Of a DNA stretch of 64,000 bases, positions 10,454 through 50,464 are shown in pieces. The notes beneath the pieces were generated by a model that searched no databases, was not told the origin of the DNA, and saw only the letters and a program-made list of their open reading frames with translations. Both the position numbers and the translations under genes were made by a program. The DNA is taken from positions 1-64,000 of the forward strand of contig JARKUF010000038.1 of assembly GCA_029974015.1 (NCBI GenBank), given 5' to 3'. Position 1 is the stretch's first letter; the number at the start of each line of letters is the position of its first letter. The stretch comes from Spirochaetota bacterium. Lineage in GTDB: Bacteria > Spirochaetota > UBA4802 > JAGODF01.

Positions 10454-10492
10454 CAAAAAAAGACGGGCCCCTCATATACCGAAGGGCCCGTC
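10454..10492 (-). terminator. Rho-independent terminator of the SCP2/transketolase operon
   Basis: On the minus strand GACGGGCCC pairs with GGGCCCGTC across a 13-base loop and is followed by seven T. It lies about 40 bases after the stop of the last operon gene. Confidence 0.9.
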
Positions 10493-10533
10493 CGATAATG
10501 CCTTTTAGCGCTCTTTAACGCTTTTACACCTGC

Positions 10534-11313
10534 CTATGTCACGAGGGCCTGTATTCTCTGCATGAAGTCGTTTATCTGCGCGCCGTATTCAGGGGCCCCT
10601 TCAATGGTCACCTTCCCTTCGGCAACACCGCTGACAAACTCCACGTCCCGGAGAAGCACCGCAAGGGCCCCGTCAACGCCGTGGAACTTCATATGCACAA
10701 AGGGCCTGCGCCGCTGGTAAAAGCCCCTTCCCGCTTTGGAATTCCCTGCCTTCACGCGGAGATAGGCGGCGATATCCGTGCCCTCCACAGACATCTGGTA
10801 AATCCGGTCAGGCTGTTTCTTCGTCCACTTCACCATCTCCGGATTTCCCCCCTTGTTGTACTGGCTTAAGGCCGTTGTTATCATGTAGAAGGCGAGCTTC
10901 ACTTTTAAATGCTTTTTGTCCTCCTTTTTGGGCCTGGCGCTCGGCATCATGATCTTCAGGCTCATAAGGAGTCCCAACACCTTGATGAGAAGCCCCGGTT
11001 TTCCCCACCCCTTGATGGAGGGGAGAACGGGCTTTCCCGCAAGCATGTCGTTCATCTTTTTCACCGTTTTGAAGGAAAAAGTGATATCGGCGGATTCGCC
11101 CACGCCCTGCTCCACGGAAAAATCCCCATTGTCGAAAACCAGGCAGGCCCCGATTTTCTCCCCGTCATTGTCCGCGACAAACTGCACCCGGGCCTTCACG
11201 TTCTCGAATTTTTTCTTCATGGACGGTACGTCCGAAAGCATAACCTTGATCACAGGGAAGACCGCCCGCATGAAAATCCTCGCCGCCATCAGTTCCTTTT
11301 CGGTAGCAGCCAT
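10534..11313 (-). CDS. SCP2-like lipid-binding domain protein (operon distal copy)
   Basis: A 259-residue soluble protein without signal peptide. It appears to contain two SCP2-like modules. The first runs VQFVADNDGEKIGACLVFD, then GDFSVEQG, ADITFSF and a MLAG segment. The second ends VEFVSGVAEGKVTIEG. SCP2 domains bind acyl chains or sterol-like lipids and often act as lipid carriers or accessory subunits. It starts one base after the transketolase stop. The operon also begins with a protein of the same kind (14493-15254), so two carriers bracket three metabolic enzymes. The family call is by pattern only; the ligand is unknown. Confidence 0.6.
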   Translation of the reverse strand: MAATEKELMAARIFMRAVFPVIKVMLSDVPSMKKKFENVKARVQFVADNDGEKIGACLVFDNGDFSVEQGVGESADITFSFKTVKKMNDMLAGKPVLPSIKGWGKPGLLIKVLGLLMSLKIMMPSARPKKEDKKHLKVKLAFYMITTALSQYNKGGNPEMVKWTKKQPDRIYQMSVEGTDIAAYLRVKAGNSKAGRGFYQRRRPFVHMKFHGVDGALAVLLRDVEFVSGVAEGKVTIEGAPEYGAQINDFMQRIQALVT

Positions 11314-11314
11314 G

Positions 11315-12331
11315 TCACACCTCGTCTTCCCAGTTTTCGTCTTCCTCGAAATCTTTTCCCATCAACTGGCGGACCTTGGCAATGATTCCATTGGAGTCCA
11401 GGCCATAGTGGGAGTAGAGGTCCTCGGGGTATCCCACAACGCAGTAGCAGTCGGGTATGCCAACTTTTTCAAAGGCGCACCCCTTGCCGCTGGCGGCTAT
11501 CACGTCCGCCACCGCGGAGCCAAGGCCTCCGTGAATGTTGTGGTCCTCGAAAGTGATGATGCGGCGCGTCTCTTTAACGGCCTTGAGGATCGCCTCCTCG
11601 TCGATGGGTTTGATGGTGTGCATGTTCAACACCCGGACCGAGAGGCCGTCGTCCTCTTTCAGTGTTTTTGCCGCCTCGGCCGCCTGAAGCACCGTGATGC
11701 CGCAGCAGATGAGGGTGATATCGGTCCCTTCGTTGATGGTGACGGCTTTGCCGATTTCAAAACCGTAGTCCTCTTTCTCGTAGTACGGCGGCTCGAAACC
11801 GCGGCCAATGCGGATGTAAACCGGGCCCGGATAATTTACGCAGGCCTTTACGGCATTGGCGGTCTCTATTCCGTCCGCGGGGGCGATGACCGTCATATTC
11901 GCGAATGAGCGCGTGATGGCCAGGTCTTCGGTGCAATGGTGCGTGGTCCCGGCGGCGCCGAAGGAGGTCCCCGAGTGGGTGGCGATGATCTTCACGTCCA
12001 GGTTCTGGTAGCAGATATCGGTGCGGACTTGTTCGGCCGAGCGCATGGTGGTGAAGGCCGCCATGGTCGACACGAAGGGAAGGAGTCCGGCCTTCGCCAA
12101 TCCCGCTGAAATCCCAAACATATTCTGCTCGGCGATGCCTACGTTAAAAAAACGGTCCGGGAACTTGTCGCCAAATTTGCTTATCTTCGTGGATTTCGCC
12201 ATATCGGCGGAAAGCCCCACTATTTTCGGATTGGCCTTTCCCAGGTCGCAGAGGACTTCCCCGTAAATTTCCGCCTGGGTAAGGGTATTCGCGTCATATA
12301 CAGTCCAGGTTGTTCCGGTTACTTCTGCCAT
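11315..12331 (-). CDS. Transketolase-like, C-terminal subunit
   Basis: A 338-residue protein matching the pyrimidine-binding and C-terminal domains of transketolase, in the split form found in many bacteria and archaea. The catalytic-site stretch RFFNVGIAEQNMFGISAG carries the conserved Glu that activates thiamine diphosphate. GTSFGAAGTTHHCTEDLAI and VRIGRG follow. It pairs with the gene 14 bases upstream to make one active enzyme that transfers a two-carbon ketol unit. Its place with an aminotransferase and lipid-binding proteins suggests a specialised acceptor rather than the pentose pathway, which is an inference. Confidence 0.88.
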   Translation of the reverse strand: MAEVTGTTWTVYDANTLTQAEIYGEVLCDLGKANPKIVGLSADMAKSTKISKFGDKFPDRFFNVGIAEQNMFGISAGLAKAGLLPFVSTMAAFTTMRSAEQVRTDICYQNLDVKIIATHSGTSFGAAGTTHHCTEDLAITRSFANMTVIAPADGIETANAVKACVNYPGPVYIRIGRGFEPPYYEKEDYGFEIGKAVTINEGTDITLICCGITVLQAAEAAKTLKEDDGLSVRVLNMHTIKPIDEEAILKAVKETRRIITFEDHNIHGGLGSAVADVIAASGKGCAFEKVGIPDCYCVVGYPEDLYSHYGLDSNGIIAKVRQLMGKDFEEDENWEDEV

Positions 12332-12345
12332 GGTGTTCCTCCCGA

Positions 12346-13185
12346 TTATTTTCCATACATGGTATCAACGGACTTGTGGGCCCTTTCGGCAAGCGTGGAA
12401 TCGATGCTTCCGTAATGCCACTTCACTTCGTTCTCCATGAAGTCTACGCCTTTCCCCTTGACGGTGTGGGCTATGATCAGCACGGGGCCGCTCTTTTCGC
12501 TGTGCGAATAATCGATGGCTTCCGTGAGTTCCGCAAAGCTGTGCCCGTCGACTTCCTTCACTATCCAGCCGAAGGCCTTCCACTTATCTGCGAAGGGTTC
12601 CAGGTTCATCACCTGTTCCGTGCGCCCGTCTATCATGAGCTTGTTCCGGTCCACAATCCCGGTGAGATTGTTAAGCTTGAAATGGGACGCCGACATGGCG
12701 GCCTCCCAGATGGTCCCTTCATTGCATTCACCGTCACCCATGATGCAGTAGGTCCACCAGGATTTATTCTGCATGCGCGCCCCGAGGGCGAGGCCAACCG
12801 CAATAGAAAGCCCGTGGCCCAGGGAACCCGTGGAGACATCCACGCCCTTCACTTTACAACTATCCAGGTGCATTCCGAAGGGTGACATGAAGTGGTTGAA
12901 TTCCTTAAGCTCTTCCTTATCGAAATACCCTTTGTTCGCCAGGACGGGGGCGTAGCCTACTCCGCCGTGGCCCTTGCTGAGCACAACGCGGTCGCGGTCT
13001 TCCCAGTCCGGCCTCTTAGGATCAACTTTGAGATATTTAAAATACAGGAGCGTTAAAATCTCCACCATGCTCATGGCGCCCCCTATATGGGCACCTCCGG
13101 CCCACACGGTGGTATCGATGATGTCCCGGCGTATCTGCCAGGCCTTTTCGTTCAGTTCTTTCAATTCGGCATCGGTCAGCGGCAT
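12346..13185 (-). CDS. Transketolase-like, N-terminal (ThDP-binding) subunit
   Basis: A 279-residue subunit with the thiamine diphosphate pyrophosphate-binding motif GDGECNEGTIWEAAMSAS. Active-site His segments AHIGGAMSM and SKGHGGVGY are also present. AAGGAGG precedes the ATG. It is the third gene in the operon, directly before its partner. Split transketolases also occur in nucleotide-sugar and cyclitol gene clusters, so the true substrate could be a modified sugar or ketose. Confidence 0.88.
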   Translation of the reverse strand: MPLTDAELKELNEKAWQIRRDIIDTTVWAGGAHIGGAMSMVEILTLLYFKYLKVDPKRPDWEDRDRVVLSKGHGGVGYAPVLANKGYFDKEELKEFNHFMSPFGMHLDSCKVKGVDVSTGSLGHGLSIAVGLALGARMQNKSWWTYCIMGDGECNEGTIWEAAMSASHFKLNNLTGIVDRNKLMIDGRTEQVMNLEPFADKWKAFGWIVKEVDGHSFAELTEAIDYSHSEKSGPVLIIAHTVKGKGVDFMENEVKWHYGSIDSTLAERAHKSVDTMYGK

Positions 13186-13227
13186 GACATCCTCCTTAGG
13201 ATAAATTTTGGGGAGCGCCCGGCGCCC

Positions 13228-14469
13228 CTAACTGTATTTCTTTTTCACTACCTTGAATGCCTCGTCCGCGATGGCCCAGGTACGCTTGATGTCGGCGTCG
13301 GTGTGGGCCGTTGAAATGAACCAGTTGTGGTGGGACGTGAAAAAGGCCCCCCGGCGCGTGCATTCTCCGCACCAATCCTGATGGAGCATGAGGCTCTCGT
13401 CGTCGGTTATGCGAAGATACGGCATGGAGGCGGCGCCCGACACCTTCAAATTGTACCCATATCCGGCGGCGATTTTCACCAGGCCGTCCAGAAGTTTCTT
13501 CCCCTTCTCAAGCATAATCTTCGGCGCGTTTATCCTTTTCATTTCCTTGAGGCACGCCAGGGACGCCGCCATGGGGGCAGCCTGATACCAGTAACTGCCG
13601 GTGAAAAACACCCGGGCCGCTTCCCCCTTCAATGCCCCGGTACCCACCAGGGCCGATATGGGATGTCCATTGGCGATGGCCTTGCAGAAACAGATGAGGT
13701 CGGGCTTAAAGCCAAAATACTCGCAGGACCCTCCCATAGAGAGCCTGAAACCGCAACGCACATCGTCTATGATGAGGACGATGCCTTCCCTGTTACAGAG
13801 GGCCTGTACCTTCTGCCAGTACCCGTCGGCGGGGAGCTCATTGTCGACGAAAGTGGGATGATGATAGGGCGTGGCGATGAAGGCCGCGATCTGACCGGGG
13901 TTTTCATTAACCGCCCTTTCGAACTCCTCGTAACGGTTCCAGTTGATGCGGACAATATTCCGGTAATCTTCCTCAATGATTCCGTGGTGTCCCGGGGCCT
14001 GCATCCAGGGTGATACCCCGTGATATCCTCCTCCGACCATCACCACCTTTTTCCTTCCCGTGGCCGACCTGGCGATCATCACCGCGTAGTTGGTCACGTC
14101 CCCGCCGTTTTTCGCAAAGAAGGCCCAGTCGGCTACAGGAATGAGGTCCACCAGGTATTCAGCGAGCTCCACCATCACCGAGGATGCTCCCATGAGACAG
14201 CTTCCGGATTTCTGGTACTTCGCCGCGGCGGCCTCCACCTTCGGATGGTTGTACCCGAGCACCATGGGGCCATAGGCGCACATATAGTCGATGAAATCAT
14301 TGCCATCCACATCTTTGAAATGTGAGCCCCTTCCGCTGGCGGCAAAAAAGGGATAGTGGGCCGCGGGGATAAGCGGGGCCGGGCTGAAATGACCGTAAAT
14401 ACCGCAGGGGATCACCTTCGCCGCGCGCTTAAAAAGGTTTTGTGAATTTTTATAGCTGTAGGTTTTCAT
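13228..14469 (-). CDS. Class III PLP-dependent aminotransferase (GSA aminotransferase-like)
   Basis: A fold-type I aminotransferase or aminomutase of 413 residues. The PLP lysine lies in CFCKAIANGHPISALVG, the cofactor Asp in LIIDDVRCGF, and FFAKNGGDVTNYAVM forms the phosphate-binding region. The pattern is closer to glutamate-1-semialdehyde aminomutase-like enzymes of surface glycan clusters than to HemL itself. Within the operon it could aminate the ketone made by the split transketolase. CGGAGA lies upstream of the ATG. No heme gene is adjacent, so hemL is unlikely. Confidence 0.8.
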   Translation of the reverse strand: MKTYSYKNSQNLFKRAAKVIPCGIYGHFSPAPLIPAAHYPFFAASGRGSHFKDVDGNDFIDYMCAYGPMVLGYNHPKVEAAAAKYQKSGSCLMGASSVMVELAEYLVDLIPVADWAFFAKNGGDVTNYAVMIARSATGRKKVVMVGGGYHGVSPWMQAPGHHGIIEEDYRNIVRINWNRYEEFERAVNENPGQIAAFIATPYHHPTFVDNELPADGYWQKVQALCNREGIVLIIDDVRCGFRLSMGGSCEYFGFKPDLICFCKAIANGHPISALVGTGALKGEAARVFFTGSYWYQAAPMAASLACLKEMKRINAPKIMLEKGKKLLDGLVKIAAGYGYNLKVSGAASMPYLRITDDESLMLHQDWCGECTRRGAFFTSHHNWFISTAHTDADIKRTWAIADEAFKVVKKKYS

Positions 14470-14492
14470 CGCATTCTCCGGTTCATAAGGTT

Positions 14493-15254
14493 TTACGAAA
14501 GATACTTCGGTATTAAATCGAGAATCAGACTCAGGTTGTCGAGCATCGACGTCTGTCCCTTGATGACCACATCGCCAGCGGCGATGGCCGTGAAAGCGTC
14601 CATTTTACCGTTAAGAAAATCATTTGCTGTTTTGATTCCCATCAGGTTCATGATCGCCATCGGCTTTGTGGCATCTCCCTTTGTCACCGTGATATCACCG
14701 TCATTAAAATCGATATAGACGCCGGGGCCGTCCGGGTATATCTTGAATTGGACTTTCCCATTTATCATATGGGACGCCGCCATTTTTCCAACCGGATCGA
14801 GAAGCGCCAGCTCCCGCGCGGCAAATGCCGCGGTGTTGATGGTGAAGCGGGTATTCATTTCCAAATATTTCTTGTCCTTTAAAAGCTCATCCGTGGGTTT
14901 GAGATAATATTCGAGCTTTTCCGTGAGTTTAGGGAACTTTTTGGTGAGGAACCCTATTTTGGTGAATCCCCGTAAAGGAATTGGGTTCCCCTTTCCGTCG
15001 AACATCCTGTTCAGATGAGCCGGTGAGGTGAAGAAAAGTATTATGGATGGAGATTTGCATTTCCCCCGCCCCACAGTGCATTTGCCATCTTTGAATATGA
15101 TATGGGCCCTGGGGCCTCCAGCCACGGAGAACTGGATGGAAATGTTCCAATCCCGCGCCATTTCGGCCATTTCCCTGTCATAGGTCACTAAATCTTCCAG
15201 ATTTTGAATGACCGCGTACAGATTCAAGTTTGCCTTGATAAGATCAATGGACAT
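14493..15254 (-). CDS. SCP2-like lipid-binding domain protein (operon proximal copy)
   Basis: First gene of the TetR-controlled operon, 253 residues and no signal peptide. It shows two SCP2-like halves: ISIQFSVAGGPRAHIIFKDG then PSIILFFTSPAHLNRMFDG, and VQFKIYPDGPGVYIDFNDG then FTAIAAGDVVIKG. It resembles the operon's last gene in layout. A longer reading from a TTG at 15326 is possible but would begin at the -35 box and run through the operator. The ATG at 15254 is therefore chosen, with a weak GGGG site upstream. A lipid-carrier role is likely and the ligand is unknown. Confidence 0.6.
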   Translation of the reverse strand: MSIDLIKANLNLYAVIQNLEDLVTYDREMAEMARDWNISIQFSVAGGPRAHIIFKDGKCTVGRGKCKSPSIILFFTSPAHLNRMFDGKGNPIPLRGFTKIGFLTKKFPKLTEKLEYYLKPTDELLKDKKYLEMNTRFTINTAAFAARELALLDPVGKMAASHMINGKVQFKIYPDGPGVYIDFNDGDITVTKGDATKPMAIMNLMGIKTANDFLNGKMDAFTAIAAGDVVIKGQTSMLDNLSLILDLIPKYLS

Positions 15255-15277: not shown

Positions 15278-15295
15278 TGAGTGAGTACTTACTCA
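15278..15295. promoter_or_regulatory. TetR-type operator, site 1
   Basis: TGAGTGAGTACTTACTCA is an almost perfect 18-bp palindrome just downstream of the -10 box of the SCP2/transketolase operon. It is the exact reverse complement of the site at 20265-20282. A protein bound here would block transcription start. Confidence 0.8.
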
Positions 15296-15297
15296 AA

Positions 15298-15326
15298 ATA
15301 CTATCTGTACTTTCAATTTTCGTCAA
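15298..15326 (-). promoter_or_regulatory. Sigma-70 promoter of the SCP2/transketolase/aminotransferase operon
   Basis: -35 TTGACG (15326-15321), 17-base spacer, -10 TAGTAT (15303-15298). The operator follows after two bases. The same architecture is repeated at the pnt promoter. Confidence 0.8.
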
Positions 15327-15356: not shown

Positions 15357-15374
15357 TGAGTGAATAATCACTCA
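15357..15374. promoter_or_regulatory. TetR-type operator, site 2
   Basis: TGAGTGAATAATCACTCA is palindromic except at two central positions. It lies about 30 bases upstream of the -35 box of the minus-strand operon and about 235 bases ahead of the TetR start. It fits cooperative repression or autoregulation. It resembles the palindromes bound by TetR-family FadR regulators of fatty-acid genes in Bacillus. Confidence 0.75.
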
Positions 15375-15425: not shown

Positions 15426-15516
15426 GGGAACCAATAATAATTAATGGCAGTCACAAAAAAATATGTTTTCCCGCCCGCCGAAGGCGGGCGGGAAAGCCTG
15501 ATTATTAGAGGTTGCC
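15426..15516 (+). repeat. Palindromic intergenic element, short form
   Basis: The left half carries TTAATGGCAGTCACAAAAA instead of the A/T-rich hairpin. The GC palindrome GTTTTCCCGCCCGCC / GGCGGGCGGGAAAGC and the right end ATTATTAGAGGTTGCC are intact. The loop is GAAG-type rather than TTCG. It lies between the operators and the TetR gene. Confidence 0.85.
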
Positions 15517-15608: not shown

Positions 15609-16307
15609 ATGAAATGGGCGGCACTGACTCAATTTGATACCAATAAAACCCCGAAGCACGAACGGTTTTACAAGGACGCCTTCGATAAGATTTCATCCCA
15701 AAAACGCGACAGGATCCTAAGCGCCGCTATCACCGAATTTTCAAAAAAAGGCTTCAATGCCGCCAACATTAACGTCATCGCGAAAAATGCCGATATCAGC
15801 ATCGGCTCCATGTACAACTACTTCGCCTCCAAGGAAGACCTCTATCTCACCCTTATAGATTATGGATACCAGCTCCTGGAATCGGTTATATCCAGGATAG
15901 ACCTCTCCAAGGGGAATATCTTCGACAAATTAGAGAAACTCCTCCGCGCGGCCCAGGAGTATTCCCGCAACTACCCGGAAATCAATCAAATTTATTTGGA
16001 TATTTCCACGGAAGGGCTCGCACATCTTTCGGACAAGCTCTCCCTGAAGATGGAATCGATATCGGCCATATATTATCGTTCTCTCATCGGCAAGGCTAAG
16101 GAGGAGGGGCTCGCCTCCCCCGACATCGACCCCCATATCGCGTCCTTCTGCATCGACAACATCATCATGATGCTCCAGTTCTCCTACGCCTCCCAGTACT
16201 ACAGGGAGCGAATGAGGATTTTCGCCGGAGAAAAAACCGTCGAGGACGACGACGCCATCATCGACGGCATCATGAAGTTCATCAGAAAGGCCCTCTCGCC
16301 GGAATAA
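15609..16307 (+). CDS. TetR/AcrR-family transcriptional regulator
   Basis: A 232-residue regulator. The N-terminal helix-turn-helix lies at roughly residues 35-80. It includes RDRILSAAITEFSKKGF, then NVIAKNADISIGSMYNYF and SKEDLY, the classic TetR recognition region. The C-terminal ligand domain is helical and unassigned. It is transcribed away from the SCP2/transketolase operon, with two palindromic operators in the gap. The identical operator lies at the pnt promoter 4.7 kb away. The probable role is repressor of both operons, released by an acyl-CoA or similar ligand. CGAGGA precedes the ATG. Confidence 0.88.
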   Translation: MKWAALTQFDTNKTPKHERFYKDAFDKISSQKRDRILSAAITEFSKKGFNAANINVIAKNADISIGSMYNYFASKEDLYLTLIDYGYQLLESVISRIDLSKGNIFDKLEKLLRAAQEYSRNYPEINQIYLDISTEGLAHLSDKLSLKMESISAIYYRSLIGKAKEEGLASPDIDPHIASFCIDNIIMMLQFSYASQYYRERMRIFAGEKTVEDDDAIIDGIMKFIRKALSPE

Positions 16308-17257: not shown

Positions 17258-18667
17258 CTACATCTTCCCAATAATCGAGGTCAGGGTTTCTTCGGCGTTT
17301 CCAAGCATCAGGATGGTGTTCTCGCGCCCATAGAGTGGGTTGTCCACACCGGAGTATCCGGGCTTGGTATCGAGATTGCACACCACCACGTTTTTTGCCT
17401 CATGGACAAGGAGGATCGGCATCCCGTAAATCGGCGTTCCCTCGGCGGTGATGGCGGAAGGATTCACCACGTCGCAGGCGCCCACGATAACGGCGACGTC
17501 CGTTGACGCGAACTCCGGGTTGATATCTTCAAGCTCGTAAAGCCGGTCGTAGGGCACGTCCACTTCCGCCAGGAGGACGTTCATGTGCCCCGGCATTCTC
17601 CCCGCAACGGGATGTATGGCGAATCGTACGTCCTTGCCCCTTCCCACAAGCAGGTCGAACAATTCCTTCACCTTTCCCTGGGCCTGGGACAGGGCCATTC
17701 CGTAACCCGGAACGAAGATCACCCGGTCCGCCCCATCCAGCGTCCTGGCGATCCTCGATAAACGCTCCTCCACGCTTTCCTGTGTCCGCGGCAGTGTCCC
17801 GGTCCCGACACACTCCTCGGGGGCTGACGCGACTGCTGAAGTTCCTTTCGCATAGGAAGTCCTTCCCGTAAGTATGTCCATGAGGGACCTGTTCATTGCC
17901 CTGCACATGATCCTGGTGAGAATCAGTCCCGCCGCACCGACAATTGCCCCGATGGCGATGAGCATGTAATCGTTTACGGCGAATCCGCAAATGGACGCCG
18001 CGAGGCCCGAGTAAGAATTTAGCAGTGAAATGGTGATCGGCATATCGGCCCCGCCTATCCTCACCGCGAAGATCGCGCCGAAAGCCAGGGAAACGAGGGC
18101 CGCCGCGACGGCAATGACGATCGATTCACCGCGGCCCTCAAAGGGCCCCGCGGCGGCGAGGACAGCCATGACGATAATAAGCTGGAGGCTCAATGCACTG
18201 TGGCCCCGCATCACCAGGGGCTGTTGGGATATCCTCTTGTCGAGCTTCCCTGCCGCGACGAGGCTTCCGGAAAATGTAACTCCTCCAACTATAATCGCCA
18301 ACTGGCCCGCCAGGAGGTTCACTCCGTCAAGCCTGTCGTACTGCTCAAATAGCACCACAAGCGCCACGAGGAGAGACGCTAACCCGCCCAGGCCGTTAAG
18401 AAGGGCCACGAACTGCGGTATCTTCAGCATGGTGACCCTTACGGACAGAGCGGCCCCTATTACGGAGCCCACGAGGAGCCCCGCAATGAGAAGCGGCATG
18501 TCGATGATGTCGTTGTGCAGAAGCACCGCCGCTATGGCGAAGAGCATTGCCAGGGCGCCAAGCCGGTTCCCCGCGACAGAGGTGCGCGGAGAGCTCAGGA
18601 GGCGTATCCCCAGGAGCGTCACAAGCACTACGGCGGCGGATATTAGTTCATAGGTCCCGAAATCCAT
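17258..18667 (-). CDS. pntB: NAD(P) transhydrogenase subunit beta
   Basis: A 469-residue membrane subunit of the proton-translocating transhydrogenase, which makes NADPH from NADH using the proton gradient. Nine or so TM helices occupy the first ~265 residues. A NADP-binding domain III follows, with the VIFVPGYGMALSQAQ dinucleotide fold, FAIHPVAGRMPGHMNVLLAE, and VIVGACDVVNP. It is last in the pntAA-pntAB-pntB operon. Confidence 0.95.
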   Translation of the reverse strand: MDFGTYELISAAVVLVTLLGIRLLSSPRTSVAGNRLGALAMLFAIAAVLLHNDIIDMPLLIAGLLVGSVIGAALSVRVTMLKIPQFVALLNGLGGLASLLVALVVLFEQYDRLDGVNLLAGQLAIIVGGVTFSGSLVAAGKLDKRISQQPLVMRGHSALSLQLIIVMAVLAAAGPFEGRGESIVIAVAAALVSLAFGAIFAVRIGGADMPITISLLNSYSGLAASICGFAVNDYMLIAIGAIVGAAGLILTRIMCRAMNRSLMDILTGRTSYAKGTSAVASAPEECVGTGTLPRTQESVEERLSRIARTLDGADRVIFVPGYGMALSQAQGKVKELFDLLVGRGKDVRFAIHPVAGRMPGHMNVLLAEVDVPYDRLYELEDINPEFASTDVAVIVGACDVVNPSAITAEGTPIYGMPILLVHEAKNVVVCNLDTKPGYSGVDNPLYGRENTILMLGNAEETLTSIIGKM

Positions 18668-18674
18668 AATTGTC

Positions 18675-18953
18675 TCACTTGTCCGATTTAAACATTCGAA
18701 GCATCCGGTCCGTCACGAGGAACCCCCCCACGACGTTCACCATGGCCAGGACGATGGCGAGAACTCCCAGCGAGCGGCTTCCCAGCGCCACGGCGAAGGC
18801 CGTAGCCACGAGGGCGCCGAGGACGGTAACGCCCGAGAGGGCGTTCATTCCCGACATGAGCGGGGTATGCAAAAGCGACGGCACATCGGAAATGAGTTTA
18901 TATCCTGCCAGTGTCGCCGCAATAAAGACCAAAAGAGAAATCCATATATTCAT
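18675..18953 (-). CDS. pntAB: NAD(P) transhydrogenase subunit alpha, part 2 (membrane part)
   Basis: A 92-residue subunit with three to four TM helices (ISLLVFIAATLAGYKLI, ALSGVTVLGALVATAF, VLAIVLAMVNVVGGFLVTDR). It corresponds to the C-terminal membrane part of E. coli PntA. It overlaps the pntAA stop by four bases and precedes pntB by seven, so the three are one translational unit. Confidence 0.93.
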   Translation of the reverse strand: MNIWISLLVFIAATLAGYKLISDVPSLLHTPLMSGMNALSGVTVLGALVATAFAVALGSRSLGVLAIVLAMVNVVGGFLVTDRMLRMFKSDK

Positions 18954-20143
18954 TTCGAAGCACCTCCGGCAATTCCTTTCATCGCTTCCAGTGTCCCTTC
19001 ATGGAGGATTTTCCCTTCGAAGGTCACGATGGCGGACTTTACGATTTCGTCGTTCATATCAATAGCTATCGCCCCGTCCTTCACCAGGATGGAAACAAAA
19101 TTCAGGATGTTTTTGGCAAACATAAATGTGGAGGTGACAGGCACGGACCCGGGGATGTTCTTTGTGCCGTTGATGGTTATATCGTGCCTGGTCACCATCT
19201 TCCCCGGTTCCGTAAGTTCGCAGTTCCCCCCCTGGTCAATCGAGATGTCCTCGATAATGGAACCGTATTGCATGCTCTTTACCATCTCCTCGGTGAGGAG
19301 TATGGGCGCGAGCCTCCCCGGCACCAGGGCCGACAGGACCACTATATCTATTTCTTTAATGATTTCCTTGAAAGCCTCTCGTTCCTTAAGCAAGAGGTTT
19401 TCCGGCAAATGACGCGCGTATCCCCCTTCCCCCACCGCATCGGCGGGGCCGATGCCGGTGTCGATGATCTTCGCCCCCAGGCTCTTAGCCTGCTCGGCAG
19501 CATCAGGGCGCACGTCCGCCGCATAGGTCACGGCGCCGAGCCGCTTGGCCGTCGCCAGGGCCTGGAGCCCCGCCACGCCCACACCCACCACGAAGACCTT
19601 CGCCGGCTGGATCATGCCGACGGCTGTGCCCACCATTGGCATGAACTTGGGCAACATGGAGCTTGCGGAGATGATGGCCTTGTATCCCGCCACCGTGCTC
19701 ATTGAGGTAAGGGCGTCCATAGACTGGGCGCGGGATATCCTCGGTATGCAATCCAGGGAGAGGCTAATTACGCCTTTCTTGGCCATGGCCCGGACCATAT
19801 CGTGGTTAGAGGGATTGGCCGGGTGCAAAAAAGTCACAAGCAGCTGCCCGGAACGCATGAGGTCCACCTCGTGTTTGCCCAGGGCCTCGTTCCGCATCGG
19901 TTCCTTCACCTTCAGGATTATGTCGGATGAGGAAAAAAGCTTCCCAACGTCCTTCTCCATAACCGCCCCGGAAGCGCGGTATTCGTCATCCTTGAAAAAA
20001 GCCCCGAGCCCAGCCCCCTCCTGTATGAGGACCGCGGCCCCTTCGGCGGCGAGTTTTTTCACCGTTTCCGGGGTTGCCGCCACTCTGTTCTCCCCGGGCA
20101 TAATTTCCTTTGGAATGCCGATCGTCAGACCTTTAAATTTCAT
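18950..20143 (-). CDS. pntAA: NAD(P) transhydrogenase subunit alpha, part 1 (NAD-binding)
   Basis: The soluble NAD(H)-binding domain I as a separate 397-residue subunit. The N-terminal alanine dehydrogenase/PNT region IGIPKEIMPGENRVAATPE precedes a Rossmann motif VVGVGVAGLQALATAKRLGA and the mobile loop near GYARHLPENLLLKERE. ATG at 20143 has AGGTGAAA upstream; an upstream in-frame ATG at 20257 would add about 38 unrelated residues. A promoter and TetR-type operator lie about 120 bases upstream. Confidence 0.95.
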   Translation of the reverse strand: MKFKGLTIGIPKEIMPGENRVAATPETVKKLAAEGAAVLIQEGAGLGAFFKDDEYRASGAVMEKDVGKLFSSSDIILKVKEPMRNEALGKHEVDLMRSGQLLVTFLHPANPSNHDMVRAMAKKGVISLSLDCIPRISRAQSMDALTSMSTVAGYKAIISASSMLPKFMPMVGTAVGMIQPAKVFVVGVGVAGLQALATAKRLGAVTYAADVRPDAAEQAKSLGAKIIDTGIGPADAVGEGGYARHLPENLLLKEREAFKEIIKEIDIVVLSALVPGRLAPILLTEEMVKSMQYGSIIEDISIDQGGNCELTEPGKMVTRHDITINGTKNIPGSVPVTSTFMFAKNILNFVSILVKDGAIAIDMNDEIVKSAIVTFEGKILHEGTLEAMKGIAGGASK

Positions 20144-20264
20144 CGTTTCACCTGTGTTACACCGTAAAAGTTGCCATTCCCATTTTAACATGGCCCTTTC
20201 CGGCGCCATATACAGAAGACCGGACAAGGGCGATACAGGGAAATGGATATTGTACATGTAAATG

Positions 20265-20282
20265 TGAGTAAGTACTCACTCA
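20265..20282. promoter_or_regulatory. TetR-type operator, site 3 (pnt operon)
   Basis: TGAGTAAGTACTCACTCA is the exact reverse complement of site 1 at 15278-15295. It starts two to three bases downstream of the pnt -10 box, so binding would block initiation. Confidence 0.8.
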
Positions 20283-20358: not shown

Positions 20359-20427
20359 GGCAACCTCTACTAACCAGGTTTCCCCGCCCGCTTTCAGCGG
20401 GCGTGAATACCCAAGTCTCAGTTTGCC
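20359..20427 (+). repeat. Palindromic intergenic element, minimal degraded copy
   Basis: The left arm GGCAACCTCTACTAACC, a GC palindrome with mismatches (TTTCCCCGCCCGC against GCGGGCGTGAA) and a degraded right arm CAGTTTGCC remain. It lies between the pnt promoter and the 3' end of the M23 peptidase gene. Confidence 0.65.
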
Positions 20428-27764: not shown

Positions 27765-27853
27765 GGGACCTCTAATAATTAAGGGCAGTCACAAAAACTT
27801 CGTTTTCCCGCCCGCCTTCGGCGGGCGGGAAAACCTGATTATTAGAGGTTGCC
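27765..27853 (+). repeat. Palindromic intergenic element, short form, overlapping lnt 3' end
   Basis: The left arm GGGACCTCTAATAATTAAGG, GGCAGTCACAAAAAC, a perfect palindrome GTTTTCCCGCCCGCC TTCG GGCGGGCGGGAAAAC and the right end ATTATTAGAGGTTGCC are present. The lnt reading frame runs through most of it. Confidence 0.9.
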
Positions 27854-29468
27854 AGGCCTTTTCTTTCATAATGATAACTAAAAGGACCGCTATACCCGCC
27901 AGGACAATAAAGAAAAATACGTCCCCAAACCTCCCATAGAAAGTGCCGTGGTTGAGGCGATAGTCCATGTCCCCTGTGACATACCCCTTCGTGAGGATAT
28001 TCATTGAGGCCCGGACCCTCCCGTAAGGATCGATGAGAGTGGAGTATCCCGTGTTCCCCGCCCGTACCACCCAGAATCCGTTCTCCACGGCCCGGAAGAC
28101 CGAGGCGGCGAAGTGCTGCATGTGGCCGCTGTAGGTGTCGGTCCAACCGTCATTGGTAATGTTCACCAGGAAATCGACCCCAAGGGCGACGTAGCGGCGC
28201 ACATGGCGGAAGAAGATCCCCTCATAGCAAACGAGGACGCCGAACTTCCTTTCCCGGACATCAAAGGTAGCCAGCTCCGTTCCCGGCGTGAAGCTTGAGG
28301 CGCCGAAGCTGTCGACTATATTCTTCACCCAGCCAAACCATCGCTCGTAGGGAAACCACTCCCCGAAGGGGACCAGGTTGATCTTCGAATACGATTTCAC
28401 CACGTTCCCGCCGGCATCGATGAGGACTGCGTTGTTCTGGTAGGACGTAACTCCATGAATGCCGTCTACCAGGCGCCCAATCTCACCGGTGAGAAGGGGC
28501 GTACCGATCTCCCTCACCAGTTCGAAGACCGCCTCTTCGAATACATTGAGATTGCCATGGAAAAAATCGTAGGAAAACATCTCCAGGGTGGCGGATTCCG
28601 ACCAGACGACCAGGTCGGGATTCTCCGCCGCGGCCCGGCGGGTGTAGCCCGCAAGCTGATCAAAGTACCTCATGCGGTTCCGCATCCAGTTGTCCCAGGG
28701 GTTGATGCACGACTGGACCATCGCCACGCGCAGGTCCCGCCGGGGCTCCGGATTGTTAGCCAGAAGCAGAACGCGTCCGGCGGCAGTGATGATGCCGATT
28801 GCCACGAGGGCCACGGCGAGGCGCTTAAACGACACCAGGCGAAAAACGCCCTTTCTATTGCTCCTGAGAAAATCGCCGTTCAGGGCCTCGTGAAAGAACT
28901 CTGAAACCATATAGTTGAACATAACCAGGGAGAAGGTTACTCCCATAACGCCGGTGAAGCGCGCCATCTGGATGAAGTCCGTAAAGGGATACTGGCTATA
29001 CCCCCAGTAAGTCCAGGGAAATGCCAGAAACCCCAGGGACTGGACCCAGTCGATCATTATCCACAGTGAGGGGTAAATGAGAAACCTTAGTTTTTCAAAA
29101 CGGCGGGCAAGGAACTCCGCGAGGAGGACCTTCGTCACCATGAAGGCCGTGAGGGCCGGGATGAGGAGCGCCACAATGAATGTGAATCCACCCGAAACTT
29201 TCGCGCCGAAATATCCGATCCAGCTGAACGTCAACAGGTTTCCAAAGAAAAACGCTACAAAGGAATAAAACACAAGCTCTCCGTATTTCCTTCCCCTGAC
29301 GAAAAGAAATACAGGCACCAGGGAAAACCACGCAAAGAAAGGAAATCCCTTGAGGAACCAGATATCATAGGCTGGAAACGAAAGGTACATCAGAAGGGAA
29401 GTGGCGAGATAGTAATTACCGGCAGCGAATTTCATACCCCCCTTCACTATTTTTTTCATAAGCCCCAT
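27789..29468 (-). CDS. lnt: Apolipoprotein N-acyltransferase
   Basis: Final enzyme of bacterial lipoprotein maturation, N-acylating the diacylglyceryl-Cys. About eight TM helices fill residues 1-235 and a nitrilase domain fills 250-510. The catalytic triad is visible as Glu in VWSESATLE, Lys in YSKINLVPFGE, and Cys in VLVCYEG. A C-terminal TM helix (VFFFIVLAGIAVLLVIIM) follows. The last ~24 residues, beginning WQPLIIRFSRPPKAGGKT, are encoded by a palindromic repeat and are not part of the family. It starts directly after the ligA stop, in a ligA-lnt operon. Confidence 0.92.
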   Translation of the reverse strand: MGLMKKIVKGGMKFAAGNYYLATSLLMYLSFPAYDIWFLKGFPFFAWFSLVPVFLFVRGRKYGELVFYSFVAFFFGNLLTFSWIGYFGAKVSGGFTFIVALLIPALTAFMVTKVLLAEFLARRFEKLRFLIYPSLWIMIDWVQSLGFLAFPWTYWGYSQYPFTDFIQMARFTGVMGVTFSLVMFNYMVSEFFHEALNGDFLRSNRKGVFRLVSFKRLAVALVAIGIITAAGRVLLLANNPEPRRDLRVAMVQSCINPWDNWMRNRMRYFDQLAGYTRRAAAENPDLVVWSESATLEMFSYDFFHGNLNVFEEAVFELVREIGTPLLTGEIGRLVDGIHGVTSYQNNAVLIDAGGNVVKSYSKINLVPFGEWFPYERWFGWVKNIVDSFGASSFTPGTELATFDVRERKFGVLVCYEGIFFRHVRRYVALGVDFLVNITNDGWTDTYSGHMQHFAASVFRAVENGFWVVRAGNTGYSTLIDPYGRVRASMNILTKGYVTGDMDYRLNHGTFYGRFGDVFFFIVLAGIAVLLVIIMKEKAWQPLIIRFSRPPKAGGKTKFL

Positions 29469-47168: not shown

Positions 47169-50100
47169 TTAATCCCGCCCATCTCCCTCCACCACGGCTA
47201 TCTCCTCGTCGGTGAGGCCGTAGAGCTCGTAGACGAGCGCGTCTATGCGCGCGTCGGTGGACTCGATCTGGCGCTGGAGGGCCGTGCGCTGGTGCGGCTC
47301 GCGCGCGGCGGCGAGCTCGCGGTGCAGGGAGAGCATGCGCTCCACCAGGGCGACCATGCGGTCGTGGCGGTCGCGGTCGGCGGGGTCGTCGAAGTTGATG
47401 GGGCGGATGGGGAGTTGGGAAAGGTACATGGGCTTGTATTCAAAGTATCCACCCTGTTTAGTGGAGGAAATGTTGTGCATTACGTAATCGGGGACCTTGG
47501 AATTGAGAACTCCTAATAGGTACATGTCCTCTGTGGGAATAATAGTTGTTTTATCATTGGAATAATATGCATTGGTATCATATTGATATGAAGCTCTTTG
47601 TACGATCGCTGGAACAATAATTTTCGGCTTTTCAAATTCTATAAAATAATCAACCGTATCTTGAATTTCATACCATTGATAATTGCCCGGCTTTCGCCCT
47701 TTCCATTCCTTGCCGGAACATCCTTTTGGTTTAGGAATTAACCTGTCTTTATGTTTTGATAAATATCTCTCAATTGCGGGATAATTTTTAATGCTAATCC
47801 CCCGGCGTGTAAATATCAGAAAGCGATCAGCGGAAGGATGACCGTATCTTTTAATGTCTCTTCCCACCAGAAACGGTTTGATCACCTCCGCGCTCTTCGG
47901 GTCCTCTTCGACGAGCCTGCGGCGCGTTACCTCGTCGATGACGAAGGCTTTGTTATACCCTGTCTTGATTCCATAGTATATTTTACCTTCCACATACGTG
48001 CCCAGCGGAACTCCGGCGGCCTTGATCTTTTCCAGCAGGGCCTGCGAGCGCTCGTCGGCAAGCGACCAACCGGCGTCGTCGAGCGAATCGACCGCCACCG
48101 TGTGTGCGTGCTCGTCGACGTAGGCGGACAGGTCGGCGAAATCGAGTGTACCCACCCTGACCGCACGGAATTCGCGGGCGGGCTTTCGCATCCCGCGCAA
48201 TCGAATAATGCAGGGATAGGTGGTAGCCCGCTGGAAAACCGGGAGGTCGCCGAAATCCAAGATTTCAACGATGTTCCGCGCCTTCAGCCAGCGGCGGAGC
48301 GGTTCGCCGTAGTTGGCGCGCAGCCATTTGTTCGCGACGATGAACGAGAAATATCCGTCCTTGCGTGTGAGTTTAATCGCCTTTTCGATGAAGTATGCGT
48401 AAATGTCGGCCACTCCGTGGTACACCTCGTAGGTCCGCGCGAAGTAGTCCTTGAATTCCCTCAGCCCTTCTTGCCGTATATACGGCGGGTTCCCTATCAC
48501 CGCGTCGAAGCCGCCGCCTGCGCCGATAAAGGGAAACTCGCGTTCCCAGTCGAAGACGTTCACGCGGTAGCGCTCCTCGTCGTCCAGCAGGCTTAGCTGC
48601 GTGTCCTCGTAGAAGTCGGGGCCTATGAGCGAGTTTCCGCATTTGATGTTGGCGCCCAGGTCCGGAAGCGCCCGCTCGCGGAAAAGCGAGAGCTGGCTTG
48701 TGAGCGTCTGCTCCGACTCGTTTTCGAGAACCTTAAGCGCCAGCGAAAGCTTTGTGACCTCCACCGCCTGCGGGTCTATGTCGACGCCGTAGATGTGGTC
48801 CAGCAGAATCCGCCGCTTCTCCCGCGTGGTGAGCCGCCAGCCGCCTGGCGAGCGGTAAAGCACGGGCGATTTTCCTTTCGCGTGCTTTTCGGGATCGCCC
48901 TCCTCGTAGCGCTCGAGGTACCAGTCCAGAAGAAGCTGGTAGGCCACGATTAGAAACGAGCCAGAGCCGCAGGCCGGGTCGAGCACCCGCACCGGTGCGC
49001 CGCCGCGCGTTCCGCGCGCCTGGTCGATGGTTTTGCCATCGAGGAGCGCTCCGAGCGTGTGCTTCACGATATAGTCGACGATGTACGAGGGCGTATAGAA
49101 CACGCCGCCGGCCTTCTTTACCTCGGGCTTGTCCTCCACCTGCGCCCGGTGCCCGGCGGTAAGGCGGATCACCTTGCCCAGAAACTGCTCGTACACCTGT
49201 CCTAAGATTTCGGCCGGCAGCACCGAAAACTCGTAGGGGCTTTCGGGATAGTACAGGCTTTTAATGATGTCCCTAAGCGGAGGGCCGTCCACGGTGAGCG
49301 CGGGCGTAAGGAGGTCGGGTTCCTCGGACTGGCCCTTTTCGTTTTCGAAGTGGAAGATGCCGGAGTTGTAGCGCGCGTCGGCGCGGCGGAAGAGCTCGAC
49401 AAGGCGCGGATAGACACGGGGCCCGTTGGGAAGCTGCATGAGCTGTCCGTACGGCTCGATGCCGCGGTCCTCGCAGATACGAAGAAAGATGATGCGGTCT
49501 ATGGTGCGCTGCACGGCAAAATTGAGCTCGCGCGTGGAGAGCGAGGGATTGCGAAGCGCGATGTTCCGCGCGAGCGCCTCGCGCCAGGATTCTATTTCGC
49601 GCAGAAACGCCTCGTCCACGTCGGCCGTCCCTTTTTTCCGGTCCGGGGAGTCCGCGTAACGGTCGAACGAGCCTTTAAGCACCGCCTCGCGCGAGTAGAG
49701 CGCGTACAGATCGTCCCAGCGTTCGGCGTACTCGCGAAAGGTGATGTAAAGCACGCGCGCGGTGGCCGCGCTGTCGGTGTGAACGGGCTTGATCCGGGTG
49801 TCGTACACGGCGAACTCTTCGAAATCGGTGAGGATGCTCAAAGGGAGCCTGGCCGACCAGGCGTACCGGCGCAGTTGGTAAGCGGGGTGGATGTCGCCTT
49901 TTATGTCCACCGAGGGTTTTTTGGCCTCGAGAAAAAACTTGCGCGCGCCGCCCACCCGGAAACAGTAATCGGGCGCCTTGGTGGACTGGTCTATCTTGAT
50001 GGAGTCCTCGTGCACCACGTCCTTGTAGGCCTCGGCATAGCCCTGCCGGTTGTCAACGTCCCAGCCCAGCTCGGAAAAGAACGGGTCAATGAACTCGCGG

Positions 50101-50195
50101 CGCACCTGCGTTTCGTTGTACTGGCCCGATTTATACGCTTCGATGTTGCCCTCGAAACGCTCTACCAGCTCTATGACCCTGGAGGGGACGCTCAT
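47169..50195 (-). CDS. Type IIG restriction enzyme/N6-adenine DNA methyltransferase
   Basis: A single-chain restriction-modification enzyme of 1008 residues. The N-terminal PD-(D/E)XK-like nuclease has Asp 76 and the EAKK motif at about 90-93. A helical connector follows. The gamma-class methyltransferase has SAM motif DPACGSGSF near 406 and catalytic NPPY at 569-572 (GNPPYIRQEG). The C-terminal target-recognition domain lies at about 770-920. GAGGAG precedes the ATG at 50195. The recognition domain is encoded by DNA far richer in A/T than the rest of the gene. There is no separate specificity or methylase gene, consistent with type IIG. Confidence 0.9.
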   Translation of the reverse strand: MSVPSRVIELVERFEGNIEAYKSGQYNETQVRREFIDPFFSELGWDVDNRQGYAEAYKDVVHEDSIKIDQSTKAPDYCFRVGGARKFFLEAKKPSVDIKGDIHPAYQLRRYAWSARLPLSILTDFEEFAVYDTRIKPVHTDSAATARVLYITFREYAERWDDLYALYSREAVLKGSFDRYADSPDRKKGTADVDEAFLREIESWREALARNIALRNPSLSTRELNFAVQRTIDRIIFLRICEDRGIEPYGQLMQLPNGPRVYPRLVELFRRADARYNSGIFHFENEKGQSEEPDLLTPALTVDGPPLRDIIKSLYYPESPYEFSVLPAEILGQVYEQFLGKVIRLTAGHRAQVEDKPEVKKAGGVFYTPSYIVDYIVKHTLGALLDGKTIDQARGTRGGAPVRVLDPACGSGSFLIVAYQLLLDWYLERYEEGDPEKHAKGKSPVLYRSPGGWRLTTREKRRILLDHIYGVDIDPQAVEVTKLSLALKVLENESEQTLTSQLSLFRERALPDLGANIKCGNSLIGPDFYEDTQLSLLDDEERYRVNVFDWEREFPFIGAGGGFDAVIGNPPYIRQEGLREFKDYFARTYEVYHGVADIYAYFIEKAIKLTRKDGYFSFIVANKWLRANYGEPLRRWLKARNIVEILDFGDLPVFQRATTYPCIIRLRGMRKPAREFRAVRVGTLDFADLSAYVDEHAHTVAVDSLDDAGWSLADERSQALLEKIKAAGVPLGTYVEGKIYYGIKTGYNKAFVIDEVTRRRLVEEDPKSAEVIKPFLVGRDIKRYGHPSADRFLIFTRRGISIKNYPAIERYLSKHKDRLIPKPKGCSGKEWKGRKPGNYQWYEIQDTVDYFIEFEKPKIIVPAIVQRASYQYDTNAYYSNDKTTIIPTEDMYLLGVLNSKVPDYVMHNISSTKQGGYFEYKPMYLSQLPIRPINFDDPADRDRHDRMVALVERMLSLHRELAAAREPHQRTALQRQIESTDARIDALVYELYGLTDEEIAVVEGDGRD

Positions 50196-50464
50196 GTATT
50201 GGCTCCTCTTTCGTGTGTTCGCCGAAAATCCCCGGCGTTTTGCTGAAGGGCCCACATTATCAAAATGTGGCCGGTTCGCAAGGATTTTTCAGTGACGAAA
50301 GAACAGGCGCCCCCCTGAAGCCGGCAACCAATATCACCCCCAATAATTATGTTGACAGAAAGCGCCCCCATGAATAATGACACCCGGCATTTACACAACT
50401 GACGGTATACCTTTTTTCTCCCCGAAGCGCGTCCCGGCAGCATCTAATACAATATGGTCCAACA

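Follow-up and report, generated by a model that had tools for sequence, protein, structure and literature searches.

A conserved operon joining SCP2-like proteins, a FumI-like aminotransferase and a split transketolase, with a possible role in sphingoid-base breakdown

The window analysed here is a stretch of 64,000 nucleotides from a Spirochaetota bacterium (positions 1 to 64,000 of contig JARKUF010000038.1; its genome is hereafter G000), and the subject of this study is a cassette of five minus-strand genes in it, separated by gaps of 1–42 bases, in which two SCP2-like proteins bracket a class III aminotransferase (AT) and the two chains of a split transketolase. The operon is real, widely conserved and apparently undescribed. 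The reading that I favour, with a probability of about 0.6, is that it encodes a sphingoid-base pathway, most likely one of breakdown, in which the SCP2 proteins would carry the lipid; I infer both the substrate and the direction. Four independent lines make sphingoid bases the probable substrate: the homology of the AT, the logic of the head group, the active site of the transketolase and an operator that the cassette shares with other genes. From first to last, the genes are:

14493–15254, minus strand: SCP2A, a putative two-module SCP2-like lipid carrier, ATG at 15254 (Pfam SCP2, 1.2e-11)
13228–14469, minus strand: AT, a FumI-like class III aminotransferase (Pfam Aminotran_3, 4e-39)
12346–13185, minus strand: TKN, N-terminal chain of the split transketolase (Pfam Transketolase_N, 5.5e-46)
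11315–12331, minus strand: TKC, C-terminal chain of the split transketolase (Transket_pyr, 6.5e-39; Transketolase_C, 1.3e-30)
10534–11313, minus strand: SCP2B, a second two-module SCP2-like protein (Pfam SCP2, 0.0057)

The operon and its conservation

A preliminary description of this DNA had placed at the same coordinates a five-gene operon in which an SCP2-like pair surrounds a split transketolase and a class III aminotransferase, and the coordinates, the Pfam matches, profile comparison and structural models all agree with it. The Pfam score of SCP2B lies below the curated cut-off; its homology to SCP2A nonetheless extends along the entire protein (hhalign probability 99.6, 250 columns). 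The double-module architecture proposed for the pair was borne out by structure prediction, each protein folding as two SCP2 modules (AlphaFold mean pLDDT 95.0 for SCP2A and 95.6 for SCP2B), and SCP2 chains are among the best Foldseek matches of both models, alkylsulfatases being matched too. Models and Foldseek thus assign the SCP2 fold to both proteins, which would bind lipid and act as lipid carriers. The description knew of no named pathway with this gene set, and none was found here; nor was an account of the gene set, or of a transketolase acting on sphingoid bases, found in the PMC literature, preprints and most subscription papers lying outside that search.

Cassette loci were fetched with the AT as query, and the best 80 of 572 candidates were retained; counts below refer, where room is mentioned, to loci with enough flanking sequence on the side or sides concerned. 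All five genes stand in order in 45 of the 57 loci with room on both sides, SCP2A lies directly upstream of the AT in 68 of the 74 with room on that side, and TKN, TKC and SCP2B follow the AT in order in 47 of the 61 with room for them. The cassette spans at least seven phyla. Judged by record titles, the 80 loci come from, among others, Spirochaetota, Desulfobacterota, Candidatus Hydrogenedentota, Myxococcota, Bacteroidota, Clostridia, Paenibacillus and Thermoleophilia, with single records labelled Verrucomicrobia and Nitrospiraceae, and cultured carriers include Desulfatibacillum alkenivorans, Desulfosarcina widdelii, Draconibacterium aestuarii and Lutispora saccharofermentans. Since the flanking genes vary between hosts, the cassette behaves as a unit. 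Its gene order, kept in 45/57 loci, is not due to chance.

The AT and SCP2B also tend to occur together among closer relatives, for which 59 genomes (G000 and 58 relatives) were sampled, the AT being counted at 67 percent identity or more. The AT is present in 18 of these genomes and SCP2B in 20 (one of them a contig-end fragment); both occur in 17, one only in 4 and neither in 38 (Fisher p 7e-11, uncorrected for kinship). Genes scattered in related genomes would have spoken against a common function. What was found instead is an order kept across phyla and, in one family (f4), a division of the cassette into SCP2A-AT at one site and TKN-TKC-SCP2B at another, with the latter half carrying the same operator. 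Among the 80 loci, homologues of the TetR regulator described below adjoin the cassette in 20 and alanine dehydrogenase in 3; one cassette was seen beside a FadL-like porin. FadD and MntP, neighbours of the operon in the window, were considered as pathway parts and set aside, as they do not recur among the neighbour clusters of cassette loci.

Enzymes and proposed chemistry

The nearest PDB match of the AT is an aminopentol aminotransferase (6hbs/6hbv, E 7e-91), followed by glutamate-1-semialdehyde aminomutase (GSAM, E 5e-43). I take 6hbs to be FumI of Sphingopyxis MTA144, with which the name of the PDB entry is consistent. In a tree of 39 rows, some with long branches that were flagged, the 22 cassette-type ATs cluster together, with FumI and four plasmid relatives as their sister group (96/95), while E. 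coli HemL falls outside. Identity between the window AT and FumI is 37.7 percent, and both E-values and tree group the window AT with FumI, not with GSAM. FumI is reported to act on hydrolysed fumonisin B1, whose 2-amino group it passes to pyruvate to yield the 2-ketone and alanine (PMC2933618), and fumonisins are described as similar to sphingosine and sphinganine (PMC9858248). By analogy, the cassette AT would take the C2 amino group from a long-chain base and hand it to pyruvate, a reaction for which the alanine dehydrogenase of the regulon (below) provides indirect support.

The split transketolase has 6yak and 6yaj as best PDB matches (1.8e-79 for TKN, 5.3e-81 for TKC), themselves a split enzyme. 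Cassette chains were aligned to E. coli TktA after filtering by length, the window included (54 N chains, 51 C chains). The catalytic and cofactor residues His26, His66, His100, Asp155 and Asn185 are present in 54/54, and Glu411 and His473 in 51/51, so that the thiamine diphosphate site and the catalytic apparatus are those of a transketolase. By contrast, Asp469, the contact for alpha-hydroxylated acceptors in sugar transketolase, is replaced by Ala in 50 of the 51 sequences and by Gly in the other; Arg91 has become Asn in 53/54 and Gly in 1/54; and Arg358 is retained in only 10/51. Six full-length transketolases of cassette genomes keep both Asp469 and Arg91 (a seventh long protein, L183, which is DXS-like and has both residues, was excluded from this count). 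In the E. coli enzyme Asp469 and Arg91 are reported to form a salt bridge, and D469T to be part of the change that shifts the acceptor from phosphorylated to non-polar aldehydes (PMC5073344). A counter-result comes from the other split transketolase of G000 (L178), which has Asn at 91 and Gly at 469 and lacks His26 and His66. This second split transketolase-like pair (L178 5389–10284, G000:C4) is flanked by an acyl-CoA dehydrogenase with a rubredoxin-like end and by a RuBisCO-large-like protein.

From the alignment, the cassette enzyme has the fold and mechanism of a transketolase and is unlikely to be a canonical sugar transketolase. An ordinary pentose pathway, which would have overturned the lipid interpretation of the preliminary description, was discarded as first choice: G000 keeps a separate full-length transketolase (L182), and the cassette enzyme differs at Asp469, Arg91 and mostly Arg358. 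A pathway for sugars or small amino sugars, with the SCP2-like proteins as scaffolds and not lipid carriers, is very improbable. It would draw on the reported action of the Carboxydothermus split transketolase on glycolaldehyde and other small aldehydes (PMC7661550) and on a phosphofructokinase gene that carries the operator in one relative; yet, besides the full-length enzyme and the lost Asp469, it must contend with the fact that the closest solved relative of the AT is FumI, not a sugar aminotransferase, and with the presence of serine palmitoyltransferase and ceramidase in the regulon.

The sphingoid-base reading supplies a chemistry for this set of genes. In a first step, modelled on FumI, where the chemistry was shown on a sphinganine analogue, the AT would transfer the C2 amino group of CH2OH-CH(NH2)-CHOH-R to pyruvate; the products would be alanine and the 1,3-dihydroxy-2-ketone CH2OH-CO-CHOH-R. 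Transketolase breaks the C2–C3 bond of ketoses. Because the head group of this ketone is that of a ketose, its C2–C3 bond is the one that a transketolase breaks, which would account for the joint occurrence of an aminotransferase, a transketolase and lipid carriers. In the second step the split transketolase would thus cut between C2 and C3 and pass the glycolaldehyde unit to an aldose phosphate, freeing the fatty aldehyde R-CHO, to be oxidised and activated by ordinary enzymes. SCP2A and SCP2B would hold the insoluble long-chain intermediates for the AT and the transketolase, and alanine dehydrogenase, where present, would regenerate pyruvate.

The preliminary description had envisaged a lipid-type substrate and a two-carbon chemistry coupled to transamination, with an amino-alcohol made or used, and it appears to have been right in kind. 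Its proposed sequence, extension by two carbons followed by amination, keeps its chemistry and loses its direction, the reverse being likelier. Run as synthesis, the transketolase would take a glycolaldehyde unit off a ketose phosphate and join it to a fatty aldehyde, and the AT would aminate the ketone with alanine, so that a sphingoid base would be made without serine palmitoyltransferase, or remodelled. Both enzymes are reversible, the operator is common to serine palmitoyltransferase, a synthesis gene, and several cassette genomes, G000 included, have no close serine palmitoyltransferase. Synthesis is nevertheless unlikely: FumI is reported to work as a deaminase, ceramidase and alanine dehydrogenase carry the operator, an aldehyde dehydrogenase adjoins 4 of the 80 cassettes, and no acyl reductase that could supply the fatty aldehyde was found among the annotated neighbour proteins. 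These points favour breakdown over synthesis by about three to one.

The same chemistry could also serve a different long-chain amino-polyol; 1-deoxy bases, sulfonolipid bases, compounds of the fumonisin type and a hopanoid amine are examples. Several carriers belong to the Bacteroidota and Desulfobacterota, groups with unusual lipids; variants with an E1-type enzyme (L103, below) would suit CH3-CO-CHOH-R; and FumI itself is reported to act on such a compound. I regard this as improbable, since a transketolase, unlike an E1-type enzyme, fits a C1 hydroxyl, and since a regulon that includes serine palmitoyltransferase and ceramidase suggests ordinary sphingoid bases. Synthesis or breakdown of aminohopanoids, considered for the combination of SCP2 and a class III AT, was rejected: a terminal hopanoid amine yields no transketolase donor, and no hopanoid gene was found among the annotated neighbour proteins.

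The operator and the weight of the evidence

The signals around the operon, and one further site in the window, are as follows:

15298–15326, minus strand: sigma-70-like promoter of the operon, TTGACG-17-TAGTAT, 9/12 (consensus match only)
10461–10493, minus strand: strong intrinsic terminator, a 14-pair stem followed by a T run (consensus match only)
15609–16307, plus strand: TetR-family regulator, divergent from the operon (TetR_N, 5.1e-13), presumed owner of the operators
15278–15295, no strand: operator 1, 18-base palindrome TGAGTAAGTACTCACTCA, immediately 3' of the -10 box, where the start point is predicted
15357–15374, no strand: operator 2, 18-base palindrome TGAGTGATTATTCACTCA, between the operon and the TetR gene
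20265–20282, no strand: operator 3, exact match at the promoter of a transhydrogenase operon (17258–20257, minus strand), the downstream gene being PntA-like

The single promoter and single terminator attributed to the operon are therefore both visible, though as consensus matches. The palindrome of both operators between the operon and the TetR gene is TGAGTRANNNNTCACTCA. Of 67 loci searched with TGAGTGANNNNTCACTCA at up to two mismatches, 22 have it upstream of SCP2A, against none of 67 shuffled sequences. An exact scan for TGAGTRANNNNTCACTCA in 16 cassette genomes of the host's order found it in 13, the reversed control pattern giving one match, and exact sites are present in 8 of 16 genomes outside Spirochaetota. 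I infer that the TetR protein binds these operators; it would repress the operon through the site at the start point.

In relatives the same operator stands on genes of sphingolipid metabolism. It precedes serine palmitoyltransferase in G021 (SerpalmtaseCFB 5.8e-150, below the model cut-off; best PDB match a serine palmitoyltransferase, 7e-122). Close serine palmitoyltransferase genes (at least 53 percent identity) number 15 in the order, and 11 of the 13 examined have two tandem sites, with at most three mismatches each and at most two in at least one of them, a three-mismatch limit that has no shuffled control; the two genes lacking tandem sites are those of G007, a genome without the cassette, and G028, one with it. 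The operator also precedes a neutral ceramidase in G035, whose start lies 27 bases downstream (ceramidase genes have it exactly in 1/13 and within two mismatches in 1 more), and alanine dehydrogenase in G008 and G025. Where TKN-TKC-SCP2B modules are unlinked from the rest of the cassette, a site with 1–2 mismatches lies upstream of TKN in 4/9 (L135, L139, L140, L141). It is absent from L136, L137, L138, L152 and L150, of which L150 starts at a contig end with no upstream DNA and L152 has only ~300 upstream bases.

The placement of the sites differs between the two kinds of target. At cassettes they lie close to the start (median 44 bases), with a promoter -10 element just upstream in 13/23, which suits repression. 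At serine palmitoyltransferase they lie 95–367 bases upstream and in 0/11 cases at the predicted start, in AT-rich regions where promoter calls are weak; this distance suits a different action, perhaps activation. FadR is an analogous dual regulator for fatty acids.

A number of observations weigh against the sphingoid-base reading. Natural sphingoid bases are 3R whereas transketolase donors are 3S, so that an epimerase or an altered specificity is needed; that the glyoxalase-fold protein found after the cassette in 8/80 loci serves as a C3 epimerase is speculation. The phosphate-contact residues Ser385, His461 and Arg520 are retained in all cassette transketolases, which keeps a sugar-phosphate partner plausible. 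A committed sphingolipid gene carries the same operator in relatives but not in G000, where neither serine palmitoyltransferase (E up to 1e-60) nor ceramidase was found. Ceramidase occurs in 6/18 genomes with the AT versus 9/41 without, a non-significant difference (p 0.52); counting genomes with AT or SCP2B gives 9/21 versus 6/38 (p 0.03, but p 0.22 within the order). Co-occurrence with ceramidase, once considered as proof of the pathway, is accordingly weak, and 0 of 15 ceramidase stretches examined contain the cassette. In 6 of the 16 genomes outside Spirochaetota the exact operator occurs solely at the cassette, 2 more having sites elsewhere. The regulon also holds members that are unexplained, namely the phosphofructokinase of G035, the PntA-like transhydrogenase gene (G000, G003, G016, G021, G024) and several unknowns. 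Finally, one operator on both a synthesis gene and a breakdown operon requires the assumption of a dual regulator.

Other observations on distribution and regulation may be added. Outside Spirochaetota, ceramidase is present in 5/16 genomes, and serine palmitoyltransferase matches are mostly 30–43 percent identical, with one of 52 percent (G071); the 30–43 percent matches may be relatives such as glycine C-acetyltransferase. In G027 an operator lies ~1.1 kb from a FadD-like ligase, an uncertain link. Repeatedly beside the operator stands a family of proteins ~330 residues long (L220 4063–5055, L233 4146–5207, L246 4255–5244), whose N terminus resembles a signal peptide and for which Pfam, tried on L220, gave no match; it is a possible new regulon member. 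Elsewhere in the window, a GC-rich hairpin, CCCGCCCGCC...GGCGGGCGGG, is dispersed (15465–15497, ~20385–20400 and the end of the open reading frame 27789–29468) and reaches into the ends of reading frames, and a protein of 1028 residues (47169–50255) resembles by eye a single-chain restriction-modification enzyme.

A wider picture can be drawn, which I hold tentatively and place somewhat short of even odds: bacteria of many phyla, many of them anaerobes, would treat the sphingoid backbone as a sugar. A FumI-like AT would turn it into long-chain ketoses, which a dedicated transketolase with two SCP2 carriers would cut, sending the head carbons into the pentose phosphate pool; one TetR protein would repress this breakdown and activate serine palmitoyltransferase; and a sister route with a kinase and a class II aldolase would lie beside ceramidase in relatives. 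The transketolase cut would then represent a novel mode of membrane-lipid cleavage, joining lipid breakdown to sugar metabolism by a route that needs neither oxygen nor a phosphorylated base. With the gene set, operator and regulator named, the proposal is testable in cultured carriers, and it draws attention to new enzymes with a possible role in detoxifying fumonisin-like compounds.

Related gene sets and known systems

Several gene sets resemble the cassette in part. L175 (2457–10696, G031:C33) combines a neutral ceramidase and an AraC/GAF regulator with an FGGY carbohydrate kinase, a class II aldolase and a class III aminotransferase nearer GSAM than FumI; L165 (9664–19473, G026:C16) has the same arrangement, judged by layout only. 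Judged from its gene content, this set looks like a kinase-aldolase route for phytosphingosine, which would give DHAP and a fatty aldehyde, the base again being handled like a sugar. On a Novosphingobium capsulatum plasmid (NZ_CP140001, L189 7101–10245), an AT 62 percent identical to FumI is flanked by a class II aldolase on one side and a carbohydrate kinase on the other; TetR, a TonB receptor, an esterase, an aldehyde dehydrogenase and a P450 lie nearby. In L103 (565–4137) the AT is followed by one protein of 779 residues that fuses SCP2, E1 alpha and E1 beta domains, an acyloin-type thiamine enzyme. The AT is accompanied by an SDR in L098, L102 and L108, the best NCBIfam match of the L098 SDR being 3-ketodihydrosphingosine reductase (2e-64, below cut-off). 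L136, L137 and L138 are TKN-TKC-SCP2B modules without AT beside a Zn-alcohol dehydrogenase, L136 also having an epimerase-like SDR; here an alcohol, not an amine, may be the source of the ketone. Paralogous FumI-like ATs (39–42 percent identity) stand with a glyoxalase-fold protein in L146–L149, and in L148 also with a DUF819 membrane protein; they would belong to another amine pathway.

Among known systems, the route by sphingosine kinase and sphingosine-1-phosphate lyase likewise breaks a sphingoid base into a fatty aldehyde and a head fragment of two carbons. In that route phosphorylation comes first and the amine departs with the C2 fragment, as ethanolamine phosphate; in the cassette proposal the amine would leave first, to pyruvate, and the C2 unit would go to a sugar phosphate. 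Neither a sphingosine kinase nor a lyase is found among the five cassette genes. The sphBCD operon of Pseudomonas aeruginosa is, like the cassette, a regulated bacterial operon for sphingoid-base metabolism, but it is reported to encode a cytochrome c, a periplasmic oxidoreductase and a pyridoxal phosphate (PLP) aldolase (PMC11893366). Even in this organism the bacterial dismantling of the sphingoid backbone is described as unresolved, and the product formed from sphingosine as unknown (PMC11893366).

Fumonisin degradation in Sphingopyxis sp. MTA144 shares with the window a homologous pyruvate-dependent aminotransferase, acting there on the C2 amine of a sphinganine analogue. FumI differs in that its substrate lacks the C1 hydroxyl and in that the window AT belongs to its sister group; the available text of the published FumI descriptions makes no mention of transketolase or SCP2 partners. 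The split transketolase of Carboxydothermus hydrogenoformans (6yaj, 6yak) is the closest solved relative of both cassette chains and likewise consists of two. It is reported to be the only transketolase of its organism (PMC7661550), whereas the cassette enzyme coexists with a full-length one. In the alignment the Carboxydothermus enzyme keeps Asp469, which the cassette enzyme has lost. A parallel in logic is taurine degradation (Tpa, alanine dehydrogenase, Xsc), in which a pyruvate-dependent class III aminotransferase and alanine dehydrogenase are likewise followed by a thiamine-diphosphate enzyme; there, however, the substrate is small and soluble, the thiamine enzyme is a different one and SCP2 plays no part.

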